From Candidatus Zixiibacteriota bacterium (GTDB taxonomy: Bacteria > Zixibacteria > MSB-5A5 > GN15 > FEB-12): 64,000 bases of DNA. Under the pieces are notes generated by a model. It did not search any database and was not told the DNA's origin. It saw nothing but the letters and a program-made list of their open reading frames with translations. Position 1 is the first letter of the stretch, and each line of letters starts with the position of its first letter. Position numbers and translations under genes: made by a program. Positions 4,183-12,397 of the stretch are shown one piece after another. The stretch is taken from the NCBI GenBank assembly GCA_022571985.1, contig JACZWU010000001.1:157501-221500 (forward strand), given 5' to 3'.

Positions 4183-4230
4183 CCAGCTTTTGTTCATACC
4201 AGTTGAGAGATATCTGACCGTGCCGCCGCC
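4183..4230 (-). pseudogene. Fossil fragment of the umuC 3' end (copy 1, most decayed)
   Basis: On the minus strand this reads GGGTVRYLSTGMNKSW, the same peptide as in the umuC 3' end at 9475-9645, then diverges. It sits 92 bases before the first yfhO copy. The equivalent fragment before the second copy is 2,681 bases or so further on, equal to the duplication period, so this is the left edge of the duplicated unit. It is too short to be a gene. Confidence 0.65.
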
Positions 4231-4321
4231 GCGGGATGGGTAACTAAGCTTTAATATCTTTGCACTCGTACTGCCTGTTGATTATACTTCAGTTCAAATA
4301 TAAAATTGATACGGGTTAAAT

Positions 4322-6766
4322 TTGGCGATAAAGAAGAAATCAAAACAATCTGTCTCAGTAGAGAACATAACAGTTATCGGTATTGAGCGTTCACCATATT
4401 ATACGCCTGTCGCTTTTGGTATTATGCTGCTGGCACTGATAATTTTATTTAAGAGTTTCCTCTTTTCAGACAAAATGCTCTACGGCTCTGATATGCTTGC
4501 CGCCGGCGTTTATCATCGGGCAATGCTGGTCGATTACTTCAATGCCTACGGTACAATCCCGCAGTGGAATCCTCATGCCTTTGGAGGCATGCCATACGTT
4601 GAGGCTTTTCATGGAGACATTTTTTATCCTTTTTCGGTAATGAAGTTTTTCGTGCCGCTCTATTTTCACTTAGGATTCAACTTAATCCTGCACATATTTT
4701 TTGCCGGTGTATTTATGTATCTGGCAGCCCGGCAATTCAGGCTCGGGAAAACGGCAGCGCTTTTTTCTGCCGCCAGTTACATGTTTGCAGCCTATTTAAT
4801 TTCTATGGTAGCTTCGGGACACGAAGGAAAGATTTATGTAACGGCGCTTTTTCCGCTGGTTATTCTGTTAATAGAGCGAGCTTTCCAGCAAAAACCATTT
4901 CTTAATTTCACTCTGCTTGGATTAATACTTGGCATAATTATCCTGTCGCCGCATCCACAGATGTCTTACTTCACGTTATGGGCCGCTGGTTTATATACTC
5001 TGTTCAAATTAGTCGTTCTTTATAAGAGAGAAAAAACAATTAGCTTAATTCCTAAGCCCGCACTTCTGGCTTTGTATGCAGTAGTAGTCGCGCTTCTGCT
5101 TTCGGCCATTCAATTTTATCCGGGTTATGTCTACACTACCGAGTTTTCTCCTCGTGCCGAAGCACAAAGTGGCTGGAAATGGGCGACCTCGTGGTCTTTG
5201 CACGAAGAAGATATCATGTCACAGCTGATTCCCGAATTTTCCGGCAATACAGCGATGACCAATGAGGGCACTTACTGGGGAAAGAACCCATTTAAGTATA
5301 ACTCGGAAGCTGTCGGAGTCGTTTCTTTGTTTTTGGCTTTGATCGGTATGTTTTTTGCGCGTCGCCGTGAACGATGGTTTTTCGGCGGACTGGCACTTTT
5401 CGCAATAGTGTATGCGTTAGGAGCTACTACTCCGATTTTTAAATTGTTTTACTACCTGATTCCTAAAGTTGAATCATTGCGCGCCCCGAGTATGATAATG
5501 TTTATGTACTCGTTTTCTGTGGCGTTGCTGGGAGGCCTGGGTATTCAGGCAATCATCAACTGGAAACATGATGAAGTACCTATCCGGCGCAAAAGACTCT
5601 ATTACATATTGGCGGGAATTCCTCTTATGTTATTTTCCTTAGCCCTGTTGTTCACATTTGCCGGCCATCAAATGATTACATTGTGGACTTGGCTGTTTTA
5701 CGAGGGAGCAACCGAAGTTTACTCTGTAGGAAGGGCTAGCAGATTTGATGTGGCTATCTCAAATCTTCCTTCTATACAAAGCGGGGCTTGGTTTGCCTTT
5801 ATGTTTACTGCTCTGGCATCACTATTTATTTGGGCTTATATGTCGGGCAGGGTTAAGATTTGGCTGTTGTCACTATTAATCTTGCTGCCAGTTGTTGATG
5901 GTGTCAGATTCAATGAGCGCTTCGTGGAAGTAGTTGACCCGAATATTTATTTTACAAGTAATCGTCTCTCAGATTTTTTCTTGGAACAGCCAGGCAATTT
6001 TAGAGTATTAAACATGGAAGAAGTAGTTCCCATGTCATTTCTACCTCTGTTCGGTATAGATGTTGTGACAGGTTACCACGGCAACCAGCTTCGCTGGTAC
6101 GATGACTTGCTCGGGGGAAAGCCGGCCCCATATATGTCAAATCCGCGTTTCAACAATTTAGTCGGTACGAGATACATCTTAGTAGGGGTCAATGCGGAGA
6201 TACCGCCTGATTATTTTGGTGAATTCCCTGTTCAAACGGTGGCGAGATTCAAATTTTTCAATATTATTCAGAACAATAACGCATTAAAAAGATCATATCT
6301 CGTCAACAAATACAAGATATTCCCTGACCGGCAGGACATTTATCCGAAGATTCTTAATGGTGAGGATGACTTGAGCCGGATTGTGTATTTGGAAAAAGAA
6401 CCCACTATTGATATTCCGCCTGACAGTATTGGTACGGATTCTGCCTGGATCATCAGTCATGCATTTGATTCAGTCGTGGTAGGAGTTGAATGTACGGCGA
6501 ATAGATTGCTGGTACTTACCGAAAACTATTACGAAAGTTGGCACGCTTTCATTGATGGTAAGCCGGCAGACTTGATGCGTGCTTATGGAACATTCCGAGC
6601 CGTAGCGGTACCGAAAGGGACGAAGCAGGTAACATTTAGATACCAATCTGAGAGATATGCCAGGGGCAAACTTATCACCTTTGTGACATCACTGTATCTT
6701 CTACTGGTCTTCGGAACGTATTTTGTAAGAGGGCGTTTCGGCAGAGATGAAACTGTAGCTGAGTAG
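4322..6766 (+). CDS. YfhO-family polytopic membrane protein (GT-C fold), copy 1
   Basis: An 814-residue protein with at least eleven hydrophobic membrane spans in the first 550 residues, then an extracytoplasmic C-terminal region (about 560-770) and a last span near the end. It matches the YfhO family of GT-C type glycosyltransferases, which use lipid-linked sugars in envelope or teichoic-acid glycosylation; the substrate here is unknown. Loop 1 holds GSDMLAAGVYHR and WNPHAFGGMPYVE, typical of the family. Both copies use a TTG start after a shared upstream sequence, without a clear Shine-Dalgarno site; an upstream ATG is not available. It is a direct tandem duplicate of the next gene. Confidence 0.88.
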   Translation: MAIKKKSKQSVSVENITVIGIERSPYYTPVAFGIMLLALIILFKSFLFSDKMLYGSDMLAAGVYHRAMLVDYFNAYGTIPQWNPHAFGGMPYVEAFHGDIFYPFSVMKFFVPLYFHLGFNLILHIFFAGVFMYLAARQFRLGKTAALFSAASYMFAAYLISMVASGHEGKIYVTALFPLVILLIERAFQQKPFLNFTLLGLILGIIILSPHPQMSYFTLWAAGLYTLFKLVVLYKREKTISLIPKPALLALYAVVVALLLSAIQFYPGYVYTTEFSPRAEAQSGWKWATSWSLHEEDIMSQLIPEFSGNTAMTNEGTYWGKNPFKYNSEAVGVVSLFLALIGMFFARRRERWFFGGLALFAIVYALGATTPIFKLFYYLIPKVESLRAPSMIMFMYSFSVALLGGLGIQAIINWKHDEVPIRRKRLYYILAGIPLMLFSLALLFTFAGHQMITLWTWLFYEGATEVYSVGRASRFDVAISNLPSIQSGAWFAFMFTALASLFIWAYMSGRVKIWLLSLLILLPVVDGVRFNERFVEVVDPNIYFTSNRLSDFFLEQPGNFRVLNMEEVVPMSFLPLFGIDVVTGYHGNQLRWYDDLLGGKPAPYMSNPRFNNLVGTRYILVGVNAEIPPDYFGEFPVQTVARFKFFNIIQNNNALKRSYLVNKYKIFPDRQDIYPKILNGEDDLSRIVYLEKEPTIDIPPDSIGTDSAWIISHAFDSVVVGVECTANRLLVLTENYYESWHAFIDGKPADLMRAYGTFRAVAVPKGTKQVTFRYQSERYARGKLITFVTSLYLLLVFGTYFVRGRFGRDETVAE

Positions 6767-6790
6767 CATCCGTCAGATTTATATTTCGTC

Positions 6791-6910
6791 CTACTTCGCC
6801 AGCCCCAACGGCAGTTCGGTCCAGTTGGTGGTATATCCGGGGGAACGATAATCCATTTTCATTGACCAGCTTTTGTTCAGGCCGGTGGAGAGATATCTGA
6901 CCGTGCCGCC
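6791..6910 (-). pseudogene. Fossil fragment of the umuC 3' end (copy 2)
   Basis: The minus strand encodes 39 residues ending in ELPLGLAK and a TAG stop. They are nearly identical to the last 39 residues of the umuC 3' end at 9475-9645, including VRYLSTGLNKSWSMKMDYRS. This is the C-terminal domain (DUF4113 type) of UmuC with no umuC body before it. It lies between the two yfhO copies, as expected if the duplicated unit joined the umuC tail to yfhO. Confidence 0.8.
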
Positions 6911-7002
6911 TCAGCGGGATTACCGACTAAGTTAAATTCATTGCACTCATTTCGCCTGTCAATTATACTTCAGTTCAAATATAAAATTGATACGGGTGTT
7001 AT

Positions 7003-9450
7003 TTGGACAATAAGAAAATATCAAAAGAATCTAATTCTGTAGCAGACATGCCAGTTATCGGTATTGAACGTTCACGATTTTACGCACCAGTCGCCTTTGG
7101 TATTATGCTGCTGGCGCTGATATTCTTATTTAAGAGTTTCCTCTTTTCAGACAAAATGCTCTACGGCTCTGATATGCTTGCCGCCGGCGTCTATCATCGG
7201 GCGATGCTGGTGGATTATTTCAATGAGTTTGGTGAAATCCCGCAGTGGAATCCCCATGTCTTTGGAGGCATGCCATACGTTGAGGCTTTTCACGGGGACA
7301 TATTTTATCCTTTTTCAGTTCTGAAGTTTTTCATCCCGCTGCATTTTCACTTAGGCTTTAATTTAATCCTGCACATATTTTTTGCCGGTGTATTTATGTA
7401 TCTGGCAGCGCGACAATTCAGGCTGGGGAAAACTGCAGCGCTGTTTTCTGCTGCCAGTTATATGTTTGCAGCCTATTTAATTTCTATGGTAGCTTCGGGG
7501 CACGAAGGAAAGATTTATGTCACGGCTCTCTTTCCGCTGGTTATCCTGTTAATAGAGCGAGCTTTCCAGCAAAAACCATTTTTTAATTTTACTCTGCTGG
7601 GATTAATACTTGGCATAATTATCCTGTCGCCGCATCCGCAAATGGCCTACTTCACATTATGGGCTGCTGGATTGTATACCCTGTATAAACTGTTCGTTCT
7701 TTATAGAAGCAAAAAGACAATTAGATTAATTCCTAAGCCCGCTCTGCTGGCTCTGTATGCAGTTGTGGTCGCGCTTTTGCTCTCTGCGATTCAGTTTTAC
7801 CCAGGCTATGTCTACACTACCGAGTTTTCTCCTCGTGCCGAAGCACAAAGTGGCTGGAAATGGGCGACCTCGTGGTCTTTGCACGAAGAAGATCTGATGT
7901 CACAGCTGATCCCTGAATTTTCCGGTACCACATCAAGGACTGGATATACTTATTATTGGGGGAAAAACGCATTCAAGTACAACTCGGAAACCACTGGTGT
8001 TGTGCCTTTGTTTGTGGCGTTGATCGGTTTGTTTTTTGCCCGCCGGAGGGAACGATGGTTCTTCGGTGGATTAGCTCTTCTTGCAATAATATATGCACTA
8101 GGTGCAACCACTCCGATTTTCAAATTGTTTTACCACATCATTCCCAAAGTTAGTTCATTACGCGCCCCAAGCATGATAATGTTTATATACTTGTTTTCTA
8201 TTTCGTTACTGGGAGGGCTGGGCATTCAGGCAATTATCAATTGGAAATACGATAATCAACCATTCCGGCGCAATAGGTTTTATTATATATTGGTGGGTAT
8301 GCCTTTACTGTTATTTATCTTGGCGCTTTTGTTCAATTTTACCGGACGCAGAATGATTTCCTTGTGGACTTCGCTGTTTTATGAAAATGCGGCCACAGAT
8401 ATTTTTCGGGAAGGCGTTACCAAATATGATGCAGCTCTACTGAATCTACCCTCAATACAAAGCGGCGCCTGGTTTGCCTTTTTGTTTACTGCTCTGGCAG
8501 CGCTACTTATTTGGGTTTATTTGTCAGGCAAGGCTAAGATAGGGCTGATGTCACTATTGATCTTGGTGCCCGTTGTTGATGGCGTCAGATTCAATCAGCG
8601 CTTTGTGGATGTAGTTGACCTGAATAATTATTTTACACGTAACGATTTATCAGATTTTTTCTTAGAACAGCCAGGTAACTTTAGAGTATTAAACATGGTG
8701 AGTGCTGCAGTTCCCAAGTCCTTTCTGCCCCAGTTTGGCATAGATGTTGTGACGGGTTACCACGGCAACCAACTTCGCTGGTACGATGATTTGCTCGGGG
8801 GAAGGCAGTTCACAAATTGGACTAATCCGCATTTCATTAATTTAGTTGGTGCGAGATATTTTTTAACACCGCCCAATGCGGAGGTACCGTCTGATGATTT
8901 TGGTGATTTCCCTATTCAAACAGTAGCGAGAATCCACTATTTTAAAATTATTCAAAACAATAACGCACTAGAAAGATCATATCTCGTCAACAAATACAAG
9001 ATATTCCCTGACCGGCAGGATATTTATCCGAAAATTCTTAATGGTGAGGATGACTTGAGCCGGATTGTGTATTTGGAAAAGGAACCCACTATTGATATTC
9101 CGCCTGACAGTATTGGTACGGATTCTGCTTGGGTCATCAGTCATGCATTTGATTCAGTCGTGGTTGGAGTTGAATGTACGGCGAATAGATTGCTGGTACT
9201 TACCGAAAACTATTACGAAAGCTGGCACGCTTTTGTAGACGGTAAGCCGGCAGACTTGATGCGTGCTTATGGAACATTTCGAGCCGTAGCTGTTCCCGAA
9301 GGGACGAAGCAGGTAACATTTAGATACCATTCTGAGAGATATGCCAGGGGCAAACTTATTACTTTTGTGACATCGCTGTATTTACTGGTGGTGTTTGGAT
9401 GGTACTTCGTAAGAAAACGTTTCGGCAGAGATGAAGCTGTAGCTGAGTAG
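7003..9450 (+). CDS. YfhO-family polytopic membrane protein (GT-C fold), copy 2
   Basis: An 815-residue tandem paralogue of the gene at 4322-6766. The first 280 and last 160 residues are almost the same, including blocks such as LSRIVYLEKEPTIDIPPDSI and the C-terminal FRAVAVP. The middle (about 290-660, the later spans and outer loop) has diverged most, which suggests that the lumenal substrate-facing part is changing or that the ends are homogenised. The start is TTG as in copy 1, after the same upstream AAATATAAAATTGATACGGGT. Role as for copy 1: an envelope glycosyltransferase-like membrane enzyme of unknown substrate. Confidence 0.88.
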   Translation: MDNKKISKESNSVADMPVIGIERSRFYAPVAFGIMLLALIFLFKSFLFSDKMLYGSDMLAAGVYHRAMLVDYFNEFGEIPQWNPHVFGGMPYVEAFHGDIFYPFSVLKFFIPLHFHLGFNLILHIFFAGVFMYLAARQFRLGKTAALFSAASYMFAAYLISMVASGHEGKIYVTALFPLVILLIERAFQQKPFFNFTLLGLILGIIILSPHPQMAYFTLWAAGLYTLYKLFVLYRSKKTIRLIPKPALLALYAVVVALLLSAIQFYPGYVYTTEFSPRAEAQSGWKWATSWSLHEEDLMSQLIPEFSGTTSRTGYTYYWGKNAFKYNSETTGVVPLFVALIGLFFARRRERWFFGGLALLAIIYALGATTPIFKLFYHIIPKVSSLRAPSMIMFIYLFSISLLGGLGIQAIINWKYDNQPFRRNRFYYILVGMPLLLFILALLFNFTGRRMISLWTSLFYENAATDIFREGVTKYDAALLNLPSIQSGAWFAFLFTALAALLIWVYLSGKAKIGLMSLLILVPVVDGVRFNQRFVDVVDLNNYFTRNDLSDFFLEQPGNFRVLNMVSAAVPKSFLPQFGIDVVTGYHGNQLRWYDDLLGGRQFTNWTNPHFINLVGARYFLTPPNAEVPSDDFGDFPIQTVARIHYFKIIQNNNALERSYLVNKYKIFPDRQDIYPKILNGEDDLSRIVYLEKEPTIDIPPDSIGTDSAWVISHAFDSVVVGVECTANRLLVLTENYYESWHAFVDGKPADLMRAYGTFRAVAVPEGTKQVTFRYHSERYARGKLITFVTSLYLLVVFGWYFVRKRFGRDEAVAE

Positions 9451-9474
9451 CATCCGTCAGATTTATATTTCGTC

Positions 9475-9645
9475 CTACTTCGCCAGCCCCAACGGTAACT
9501 CCTGCCAGTTGGTTGTATATCCGGGGGAGCGGTAATCCATTTTCATTGACCAGCTTTTGTTCAGGCCGGTGGAGAGATATCTAACCGTGCCGCCGCCGTT
9601 GTTGGCATTCACCAAATCTATCGCTTGATATAGCTTCCCTAATTT
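9475..9645 (-). pseudogene. umuC: UmuC C-terminal domain (DUF4113 type), cut off by an in-frame stop
   Basis: Directly after the umuC TAA stop (9648-9646) the same reading frame stays open for 56 codons to a TAG. It encodes KLYQAIDLVNANNGGGTVRY ... PGYTTNWQELPLGLAK. This matches the normal UmuC end, where a Q..LF tail is followed by the domain with (A/G)xGTxR and SPxYTTxWxELP. Body plus tail would be 427 residues, close to the 422 of E. coli UmuC. So a single codon change, not a deletion, separates the tail from the body. Confidence 0.85.
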
Positions 9646-10758
9646 TTAGTAGTCTATTGATTTGAAAATATCGGTCTGTCTGAAGTCGTTTGGGTTAATT
9701 TTATTCAGCACTACCCCGGCTTTGATATATTTGTAGCCCGGTTTGAAGATAGAGTGCAAAACTTTTTTCCCGGCTGCTATCAAGTGGTGGTCGCAATCGG
9801 TAGATGGAATAAGCGAGCGTGAGGCGGCTTTGCCATACTGCGGATTTTTGGCATAGACATTAGTAGTGATAAAAACTGTTATCTCCCCTGCTACTGAGCC
9901 GTCCTCACGTAGTTTTCTGGTGGCCATAGCGGCGTGGGTAGCAATAGATTCTTCCAGCTCTGTCAGCTTCGTCACATATCTGCCAAACGAACGCGACGAA
10001 GTTATATTCTTTCTGGCCGGTGTTTTATTTTCAAGCGGGAGACAAGGAATGCCTCTTAATTCGTTGACCAGCCGCAGTCCCACTACTCCGGCTGTTTTTC
10101 TGATAAGTTGGTCGCTTATATTACGAAGCTGCGCGGCGGTATTGATTCCACGAGTGTAGAGCCATTCGGCGTAACGTCTGCCTATCCCCCAGATATCCTG
10201 CACTAAAATTCGTGACAGAATTAATTCGGTTTCGGGGTGACTGGTGATATCAAAAACTCTGCCCAGTTCGCGGTTTATTTTGATATACTCGGCGGCAATT
10301 TTTGAAAGCGTTTTGGTTTCACCGATGCCAATTGTTACCGGCACACCGGTATTATGCAGCACTTTTCTTCTGACCTGTTCAGCCTGTGTGGTATTGAATG
10401 TTTCAGGCAGCACTAAAAAAGCTTCATCGATAGAGTAAATTTCGATGTCAGGCGTGACCTCTTTGAGCGTATCCATCACCCGTCTGGAGAGGTCGCCGTA
10501 TAAAACGTAATTCGATGAAAAGACTTTGATGTTATCTTTTTTGACTATCTCTTTGACATGATGAAACGGCTCCCCCATGCCGATTCCTAGCGCTTTGGCT
10601 TCCTGCGAACGCGCCACCACACAGCCATCATTGTTTGACAGGATGATAACGGGTTTGTTTGACAGATGAGGCTGAAAGACTCTTTCGCAGGAGACATAAA
10701 AATTGTCGCAGTCAACCAGCACATATTTTTTGGGCGGACGTTTATATTCGAATATCAT
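9646..10758 (-). CDS. umuC: DNA polymerase V catalytic subunit UmuC (Y family), truncated by a nonsense codon
   Basis: A 370-residue Y-family translesion polymerase. The catalytic carboxylates are in VDCDNFY (D16) and YSIDEAFL (D111, E112). SNNDGCVVARSQEAK and SSNYVLYGDLSRRVM mark UmuC rather than DinB. Palm, fingers, thumb and little-finger domains all appear complete. The C-terminal domain lies after an in-frame TAA (see 9475-9645). UmuC normally works with processed UmuD and RecA; no umuD is adjacent. The truncated protein may keep polymerase activity but lacks the tail. The ATG sits inside a 24-base palindrome (10753-10776), a possible operator. Confidence 0.93.
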   Translation of the reverse strand: MIFEYKRPPKKYVLVDCDNFYVSCERVFQPHLSNKPVIILSNNDGCVVARSQEAKALGIGMGEPFHHVKEIVKKDNIKVFSSNYVLYGDLSRRVMDTLKEVTPDIEIYSIDEAFLVLPETFNTTQAEQVRRKVLHNTGVPVTIGIGETKTLSKIAAEYIKINRELGRVFDITSHPETELILSRILVQDIWGIGRRYAEWLYTRGINTAAQLRNISDQLIRKTAGVVGLRLVNELRGIPCLPLENKTPARKNITSSRSFGRYVTKLTELEESIATHAAMATRKLREDGSVAGEITVFITTNVYAKNPQYGKAASRSLIPSTDCDHHLIAAGKKVLHSIFKPGYKYIKAGVVLNKINPNDFRQTDIFKSIDY

Positions 10759-10776
10759 GCTTCATATTGCATGATA
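10753..10776. promoter_or_regulatory. 24-base palindrome over the umuC start (candidate operator)
   Basis: TATCATGC and GCATGATA form a perfect 8-bp inverted repeat around an 8-base centre. The umuC ATG lies in one arm. A symmetric dimer-binding site at the start of a translesion polymerase gene is what an SOS repressor box would look like, but the sequence does not match a LexA box that I know. Confidence 0.35.
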
Positions 10777-10861: not shown

Positions 10862-11713
10862 TCACTTTAGTCGCTTGTATTTATAGTTCACAAAATCAAC
10901 GCCCTTGGTCTCCAAGTATTTTATGAGGTCCCAGCGCTCTTTCGTTATTTCAATGTCTTTCCCAGCGACTTCGCCTGCTCTTATCTTTCTTAATGTCTTT
11001 TTTGTAACAATAAAGTCCTGAATAAACAAACTATCCTTACTTCGAATAAACAAAGGTTGGTGGATGTCCACTTCTAAAGTGTCAATAAAATAATAGACAA
11101 TGTCAACTTTTGTTGCTCGCAAAGCTTCCCCAAATGGAGACATCATATTTTCTCCCAACTTTCTATAAGGGTCGGCACCAAATTTAATCAGAGTTTTGAC
11201 GATACTCAAATTTAGGGCCGCAGCTCTCATAATTGGAGATTTAACATCCACGTAACGCCCTTTTTCATTTGTGAAATCGCTTTCAATCGCATAATTGGGA
11301 TCTGCTCCATATTCGAGTAACAGTTCAGCATATCGATTGTCTTCGATCCACTCAAAGCTACTTCCGAAAGACGCGATGGCTTCTATCAAAACGCTATGTT
11401 TATCAAAGGGATTGATGAAATTGTGGTCAGCCCCCAACTCTAACAGCTTCTTGAAAGAATCAAACTCTTCTACGTATAGACATAGAACCAATACATTGGA
11501 ACCGTATTCCGGATTCGTTACTTCTAATAATGTAGAATCTTCTCTCACCAGCCTTTCGATTTTCTCCAAATCACCACTTCCGACTGCTTTAGCTAACTCA
11601 TAGGCAGGAGTATCTTTGAAAAAAGCAATGTTTCTGCTACCTCTTTGCCCGCAACTTTCCATGCAGAGGTATAGAGGAAGCAGCAAGATTAGTATAACTT
11701 TAGTAAGTTTCAT
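10862..11713 (-). CDS. Ankyrin-repeat lipoprotein
   Basis: A 283-residue protein with a lipoprotein signal (KVILILLLPLYLCMESC, lipobox cysteine C21) followed by degenerate ankyrin repeats from about residue 35 to 220. Recognisable units include LLELGADHNFINPFD, LLLEYGADPNYAI and LIKFGADPYRKLG. The C-terminal 60 residues are charged and contain no repeat. It should be lipid-anchored in the envelope and bind a protein partner; which one is unknown. A GAAGGA ribosome site precedes the ATG. Confidence 0.82.
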   Translation of the reverse strand: MKLTKVILILLLPLYLCMESCGQRGSRNIAFFKDTPAYELAKAVGSGDLEKIERLVREDSTLLEVTNPEYGSNVLVLCLYVEEFDSFKKLLELGADHNFINPFDKHSVLIEAIASFGSSFEWIEDNRYAELLLEYGADPNYAIESDFTNEKGRYVDVKSPIMRAAALNLSIVKTLIKFGADPYRKLGENMMSPFGEALRATKVDIVYYFIDTLEVDIHQPLFIRSKDSLFIQDFIVTKKTLRKIRAGEVAGKDIEITKERWDLIKYLETKGVDFVNYKYKRLK

Positions 11714-11725
11714 TATTCTGTCCTT

Positions 11726-12391
11726 CTAAACTTTTTGGAGGCATGCAACACTATTATTTCTCGGGGCGTTAACTAATTTAGAGACTTCGTAGGCCTCAAT
11801 GCGGCTGTCGTCTTTGGGGAGCATAATGTTCTGGAGGTCTTCGGCAGATGTATTATGGTCGAGCCATTTTGATTCATCGGATTTATTCAGAATTACCGGC
11901 ATTCTGTCATGATACTCTTTTAAGTAATCGTTGGCTTCGGTAGTAATGATAGTATAACTGAATATCTCGCTCTCGTTATCTTTCCAGAGCGACCAGAGAC
12001 CGGCAAAGGCAAACAGTTCACTTTTTTTTAAGCGAATATGAATAGGCGTCTTTTTCTTAGGGTCGAGTGCAGATTTTTGCCATTCATAAAAGCCGGTCGC
12101 AGGAATGAGGCATCGCTTATTCTTAAAAGCATCGCGGTAGCTCGGTTTTTCTGCCACAGTTTCTGAGCGGGCGTTAATCATCTTGTAGGCAATCTTTGGA
12201 TCTTTGGCCCAGTGCGGAATAAGTCCCCAGTTCATTGCTTTTATTCTGCGGCCGCTGCCATTGGTGATTACCGGATTTGCCTGTCCGGGAGCGATATTGT
12301 AGCTCGGTTTCATTTCAAAATCTTTGAAATCCAGGCCAAACCGCTTCTTTAACTCTTCATAATCCTGAGCCAGGACATATCTGCCGCACAT
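11726..12391 (-). CDS. SOS-response-associated peptidase / abasic-site DNA crosslinker (SRAP, YedK/HMCES type)
   Basis: A 221-residue SRAP protein. Family members open to Cys2, which bonds covalently to abasic sites in single-stranded DNA and protects replication forks. Visible key residues are C2 in MCGRY, N32 in PSYNIAPGQ, NARSET near 73-78, E103 in GFYEWQ and the EYHDRMPVIL histidine motif. I start at 12391 because Cys2 must be exposed after Met removal; the longer frame to 12709 runs into the opposite-strand gene. A promoter (TTGGCC, 17 bases, TATATT) ends 6 bases before the ATG, suggesting a leaderless mRNA. Nearby umuC makes this a small damage-tolerance neighbourhood. Confidence 0.92.
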   Translation of the reverse strand: MCGRYVLAQDYEELKKRFGLDFKDFEMKPSYNIAPGQANPVITNGSGRRIKAMNWGLIPHWAKDPKIAYKMINARSETVAEKPSYRDAFKNKRCLIPATGFYEWQKSALDPKKKTPIHIRLKKSELFAFAGLWSLWKDNESEIFSYTIITTEANDYLKEYHDRMPVILNKSDESKWLDHNTSAEDLQNIMLPKDDSRIEAYEVSKLVNAPRNNSVACLQKV

Positions 12392-12397
12392 AACCAA

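Follow-up and report, generated by a model that had tools for sequence, protein, structure and literature searches.

The stretch of DNA analysed here, referred to as the window, comprises 64,000 nucleotides of contig JACZWU010000001.1 (positions 157,501 to 221,500) from the assembly GCA_022571985.1 of a Candidatus Zixiibacteriota bacterium, and contains a umuC gene interrupted by a single in-frame stop codon. This stop probably arose by a recent nonsense mutation affecting a redundant, orphan copy of umuC, which would make the gene an incipient pseudogene. On the minus strand an ATG-initiated open reading frame (ORF) of 370 codons runs from 10758 to a TAA at 9648-9646, beyond which exactly 56 further sense codons (9645-9478) follow in frame before a TAG at 9477-9475. 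An initial annotation of the window, made from the sequence alone, had described umuC as split by one TAA with the tail domain of UmuC behind it; its coordinates and codon count are exact, and the 56 residues taken by themselves match PF13438 (DUF4113, the UmuC tail) with an E-value of 2e-18, over positions 2-49 of the 51 in the model. The DUF4113 tail is therefore still encoded in the DNA, but outside the open frame of umuC, and the presence of an open and homologous tail behind the stop is not a matter of chance.

The 370-residue product includes the Pfam domains IMS (PF00817, E-value 3e-35) and IMS_C (PF11799, E-value 6e-18). Its best NCBIfam model is UmuC (NF002955, PRK03609; E-value 3e-100, 336 bits, with 141 bits for the runner-up), although the curated cut-off of 431 is reached neither by this product nor by the intact copy of the nearest relative (382 bits). 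By these matches the product is a Y-family polymerase core, closest to UmuC models and not to DinB. The catalytic carboxylates D16, D111 and E112 are invariant in the alignments. Five codons before the stop lies the motif QTDIF, of which Q361 and F365 show no variation among 11 aligned UmuC proteins; it fits the QxxLF family of clamp motifs (PMC12926913), and is a putative beta-clamp binding site. The tail carries a RecA-NT-like motif and a UmuD'-binding motif, whose functions in UmuC have been described (PMC6511836), so that the stop separates the core and the clamp motif from both partner-binding elements. If the stop is ignored, the order of IMS, IMS_C, clamp motif and DUF4113 is the same as in the Escherichia coli type of UmuC, the catalytic subunit of DNA polymerase V (Pol V), from which the window gene differs in that its frame ends before DUF4113 and in having no adjacent umuD.

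Comparison with related umuC genes, which the initial annotation had proposed as a check, showed that the lesion is restricted to the source genome among the genomes compared. The nearest genome, belonging to the same genus (G002), carries a complete umuC gene of 427 amino acids without the stop, 93% identical to the window gene, while its closest relatives beyond the genus, which are encoded next to umuD, are 50-55% identical to it. In another genome of the genus (G001) the last 117 umuC codons are preserved on a contig end, with the tail fused and open, and the DNA immediately past the stop site is nearly identical to that of the window. Codon 371 specifies Gln in G001 and Ser in G002, and is TAA in the window. 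A survey of 132 genomes of the phylum yielded 27 UmuC-type matches; two of them end at contig ends before the tail (G084:C168 and G046:C63), and among the 25 that reach it the only internal stop is that of the window copy, the tail being open throughout in 24 of the 27. For natural umuC stop alleles, the best match found in the literature is a umuC substitution with no truncation (PMC11256474).

The initial annotation had also allowed for an error in the assembly. The TAA is one base change away from the sense codon of the nearest relative, and the 3' end of umuC is repeated nearby, which can mislead assembly. However, the source genome is of good quality (2.93 Mb in 17 contigs, 97.6% complete, with 0 contamination), and 36 genes compared with those of G002 (12,836 codons) contain no frameshifts and no other true internal stops, which makes a lone false substitution creating a stop unlikely. 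In addition, the TAA is located 5' of the part of umuC shared with the repeats, so that a false join with them would not give rise to it. It is consequently unlikely that the TAA stems from an error in base calling or assembly, or from a minority allele of the strain captured in the consensus. A second internal stop initially counted in a riboflavin synthase gene was discarded, as it sits upstream of the start of that gene. The duplicated umuC 3' pieces do not extend over the stop codon, and gene conversion with these pieces as donors was rejected as the source of the stop, since their clear homology begins at about codon 389, short of codon 371.

The number of changes accumulated in the tail was used to estimate the age of the stop. 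Of the amino-acid changes in the 56-codon tail, about five fall on the window lineage and none is unique to G001; the synonymous distance between the window and G001 in this region is about 0.4. In neutral simulations, five or fewer tail changes occurred in 2% of runs with a branch length of 0.1 substitutions per site and never with 0.2, while a length of 0.05 was compatible with the data. The changes are too few for a long period of neutrality, so that the stop is recent relative to the split of the window lineage from G001, as one of the options of the initial annotation had it. Ratios of nonsynonymous to synonymous substitution rates (dN/dS) between the window and its relatives are 0.03-0.06 for the body of the gene and 0.11-0.12 for the tail; the window tail still has the look of constraint, as do the intact tails within the genus. 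At least two of the tail changes (codons 399 and 413) are common to the umuC tail and to a duplicated umuC remnant nearby, and therefore cannot simply be counted as relaxed constraint, gene conversion being a confounding factor.

The open and conserved tail could also be taken as a sign that the stop is read through, yielding the full protein, or that a separate tail peptide is made by re-initiation, for which a TTG-initiated ORF of 46 amino acids starting at 9615 might serve. The recency of the stop accounts for the openness of the tail, so that read-through is not needed to explain it, and TAA is an ordinary stop here, ending 14 of the 35 window genes compared and being the commonest stop among them; a change of the genetic code was rejected on the same count. 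Moreover, no signal for recoding at TAA is known in bacteria. Read-through, another option of the initial annotation, thus found no support, and together with re-initiation it is highly improbable.

Regarding the partner of UmuC, no umuD was found beside the window umuC in the source genome, and the same orphan arrangement occurs in G002. Only two S24 proteins were found in the source genome: a LexA-like protein at C1:149504, about 17 kb from the window umuC, and the UmuD located directly beside a second umuC at C5:79955-81700, where a complete umuDC with an intact tail is encoded. Each of the 13 other relatives examined encodes an S24 protein no more than 2.3 kb from umuC. No DinB was found in the source genome, and its detected Y-family genes are two, both of the UmuC type. 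The missing umuD and the second, intact umuDC, as well as the two extra umuC 3' pieces, had been absent from the initial annotation.

The expected consequence of the tail loss can be judged from E. coli, where removal of 26 C-terminal residues of UmuC abolishes UmuD' binding and SOS mutagenesis, removal of two or three residues leaves cells essentially non-mutable, and even a one-residue deletion lowers mutagenesis and makes UmuC accessible to Lon (PMC11791011). As in these deletion mutants, the window product has an intact core and lacks the UmuD'-binding C-terminus. It is short of 57 residues, given the position of the stop and the 56 codons behind it; this exceeds the inactivating deletions in E. 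coli, and the truncated UmuC therefore most likely cannot function as Pol V. The suggestion of the initial annotation that the loss could change regulation rather than catalysis agrees with the anatomy of the product, in which the core, the carboxylates and the clamp motif are kept, but is too mild in view of the E. coli tail deletions.

The favoured explanation, in which a redundant orphan gene recently acquired a nonsense mutation, implies the following history. The ancestral locus was probably of the type in which the gene of an SOS response associated peptidase (SRAP) is followed by umuD and umuC. In the simplest case the adjacent umuD would have been lost first, in the genus, after which, in the source genome, a TAA replaced one sense codon located past the clamp motif and ahead of DUF4113. 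Translation would yield a Y-family core of 370 residues with the clamp motif at its very C-terminus; since it lacks both the RecA-NT-like motif and the tail that binds UmuD', a Pol V mutasome should not form from it, and by analogy with the E. coli deletions it would probably support no mutagenesis and be readily degraded by proteases. The gene would then be in the first stage of decay, a loss that may be tolerated because the genome keeps an intact umuDC elsewhere. Several points weigh against this explanation. The 370 codons before the stop contain no second lesion and have a low dN/dS (0.057), so that nothing in the body yet shows the death of the gene, although a stop so young would be uninformative either way; and, with the low probability given above, the TAA could be an error or a strain polymorphism.

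A different outcome would be that the truncation is tolerated or even useful, the product acting as a clamp-recruited polymerase of DinB-like build, independent of RecA and UmuD'. The structure predicted by AlphaFold2 for the 370 residues is a complete core with a mean predicted local distance difference test score (pLDDT) of 88.7; block averages mostly exceed 85 up to residue 350 and are 81 for residues 351-360 and 51 for residues 361-370, and the last strand comprises residues 344-352, which places the stop in a flexible end. The predicted fold resembles Dpo4, Dbh and DinB structures with TM-scores of about 0.55, although the relative placement of the domains is not certain at these values and a predicted TM-score (pTM) of 0.62. 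A Y-family core of 370 residues would thus still be able to fold according to the model. Like the solo Y-family polymerases without a RecA-NT motif (DinB/Pol IV and PolY-core), the product consists of a core and a C-terminal clamp motif with almost nothing beyond; its catalytic residues are retained, the genome has no detected DinB, and the umuD beside this copy was already absent in the genus. Unlike them, the window gene is a UmuC by sequence and its truncated state is recent and confined to one genome, while the constraint on the intact tails of the genus and the inactivation or destabilisation of E. coli UmuC by shorter tail losses (PMC11791011) also speak against a functional truncated form. 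Tolerance or usefulness of the truncation is therefore quite doubtful, and a stepwise conversion of Pol V into a solo polymerase, in which loss of the adjacent umuD and then of the RecA/UmuD' tail left a working RecA-independent core as a substitute for DinB in a lineage lacking it, is more improbable still. If the truncated protein were active, it would provide a natural test of a UmuC core working without RecA and UmuD'; if it is inactive, as is more likely, the orphan copy is a pseudogene at an early and unremarkable stage and calls for caution in annotation.

Features of the umuC region and its neighbourhood are listed in Table 1.

Table 1. Position and supporting evidence of umuC elements and neighbouring features in the window
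Feature	Position	Strand	Evidence
Shorter umuC 3'-end remnant, joined to YCII gene	4183..4248	-	Lies in unit 4183-6910, 85% identical to 6866-9594
yfhO-like membrane protein, tandem copy A	4322..6766	+	Weak PF09586 match; 85% DNA identity to copy B
Duplicated umuC 3'-end remnant between the yfhO copies, last ~39 codons, open	6794..6931	-	PF13438 match at G000:C1:164309-164407
yfhO-like membrane protein, tandem copy B, converging on umuC	7003..9450	+	Weak PF09586 match
Original umuC stop, TAG	9475..9477	-	End of the open frame behind the TAA
DUF4113 tail of 56 codons past the TAA, with RecA-NT-like motif and UmuD'-binding end	9478..9645	-	PF13438, E-value 2e-18
In-frame TAA, codon 371	9646..9648	-	Gln codon in G001, Ser codon in G002
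umuC open part, Y-family palm/fingers/thumb and little finger, QTDIF at end	9649..10758	-	PF00817, PF11799, NCBIfam UmuC, AlphaFold2
QTDIF, residues 361-365, putative beta-clamp binding motif	9664..9678	-	Invariance of Q361 and F365
Ankyrin-repeat protein, directly upstream of umuC	10862..11713	-	Ank_2, E-value 5e-7
SRAP gene	11726..12394	-	PF02586, E-value 6e-77

The window order is SRAP, ankyrin-repeat gene and umuC, and in some relatives, among them a genome of the same class (G064), umuD stands in the place of the ankyrin-repeat gene. In G064 SRAP, umuD and umuC are consecutive on one strand (L142:647-3057), which links SRAP to the Pol V genes. The ankyrin-repeat gene is also found in G002, with 61% identity, below the conservation of its neighbours.

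At lower coordinates of the window, a duplication has copied the umuC 3' end along with yfhO: units 6866-9594 and 4183-6910 are 85% identical and form a tandem array (4183-9594). G002 has a single yfhO adjoined by a short remnant of the umuC tail, and a YCII gene between yfhO and umuC; the array has therefore been rearranged within the genus. The longer remnant (6794-6910) differs from the window umuC tail (9478-9594) at 10 of 117 positions, as compared with 16 for the G001 tail, and this indicates either local conversion or a duplication at a later time. Identity between the yfhO copies is a mosaic along their length, and together with the closeness of the remnant this suggests local gene conversion.

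Scans for promoters and terminators gave results at chance level only, and no clear LexA operator common to the upstream regions of lexA, umuD and the window umuC was seen by eye. A perfect 8-bp inverted repeat, TATCATGC-N8-GCATGATA, lies over the umuC start codon at 10753-10776; 7 bp of it are conserved in G002, and it is possibly an operator.
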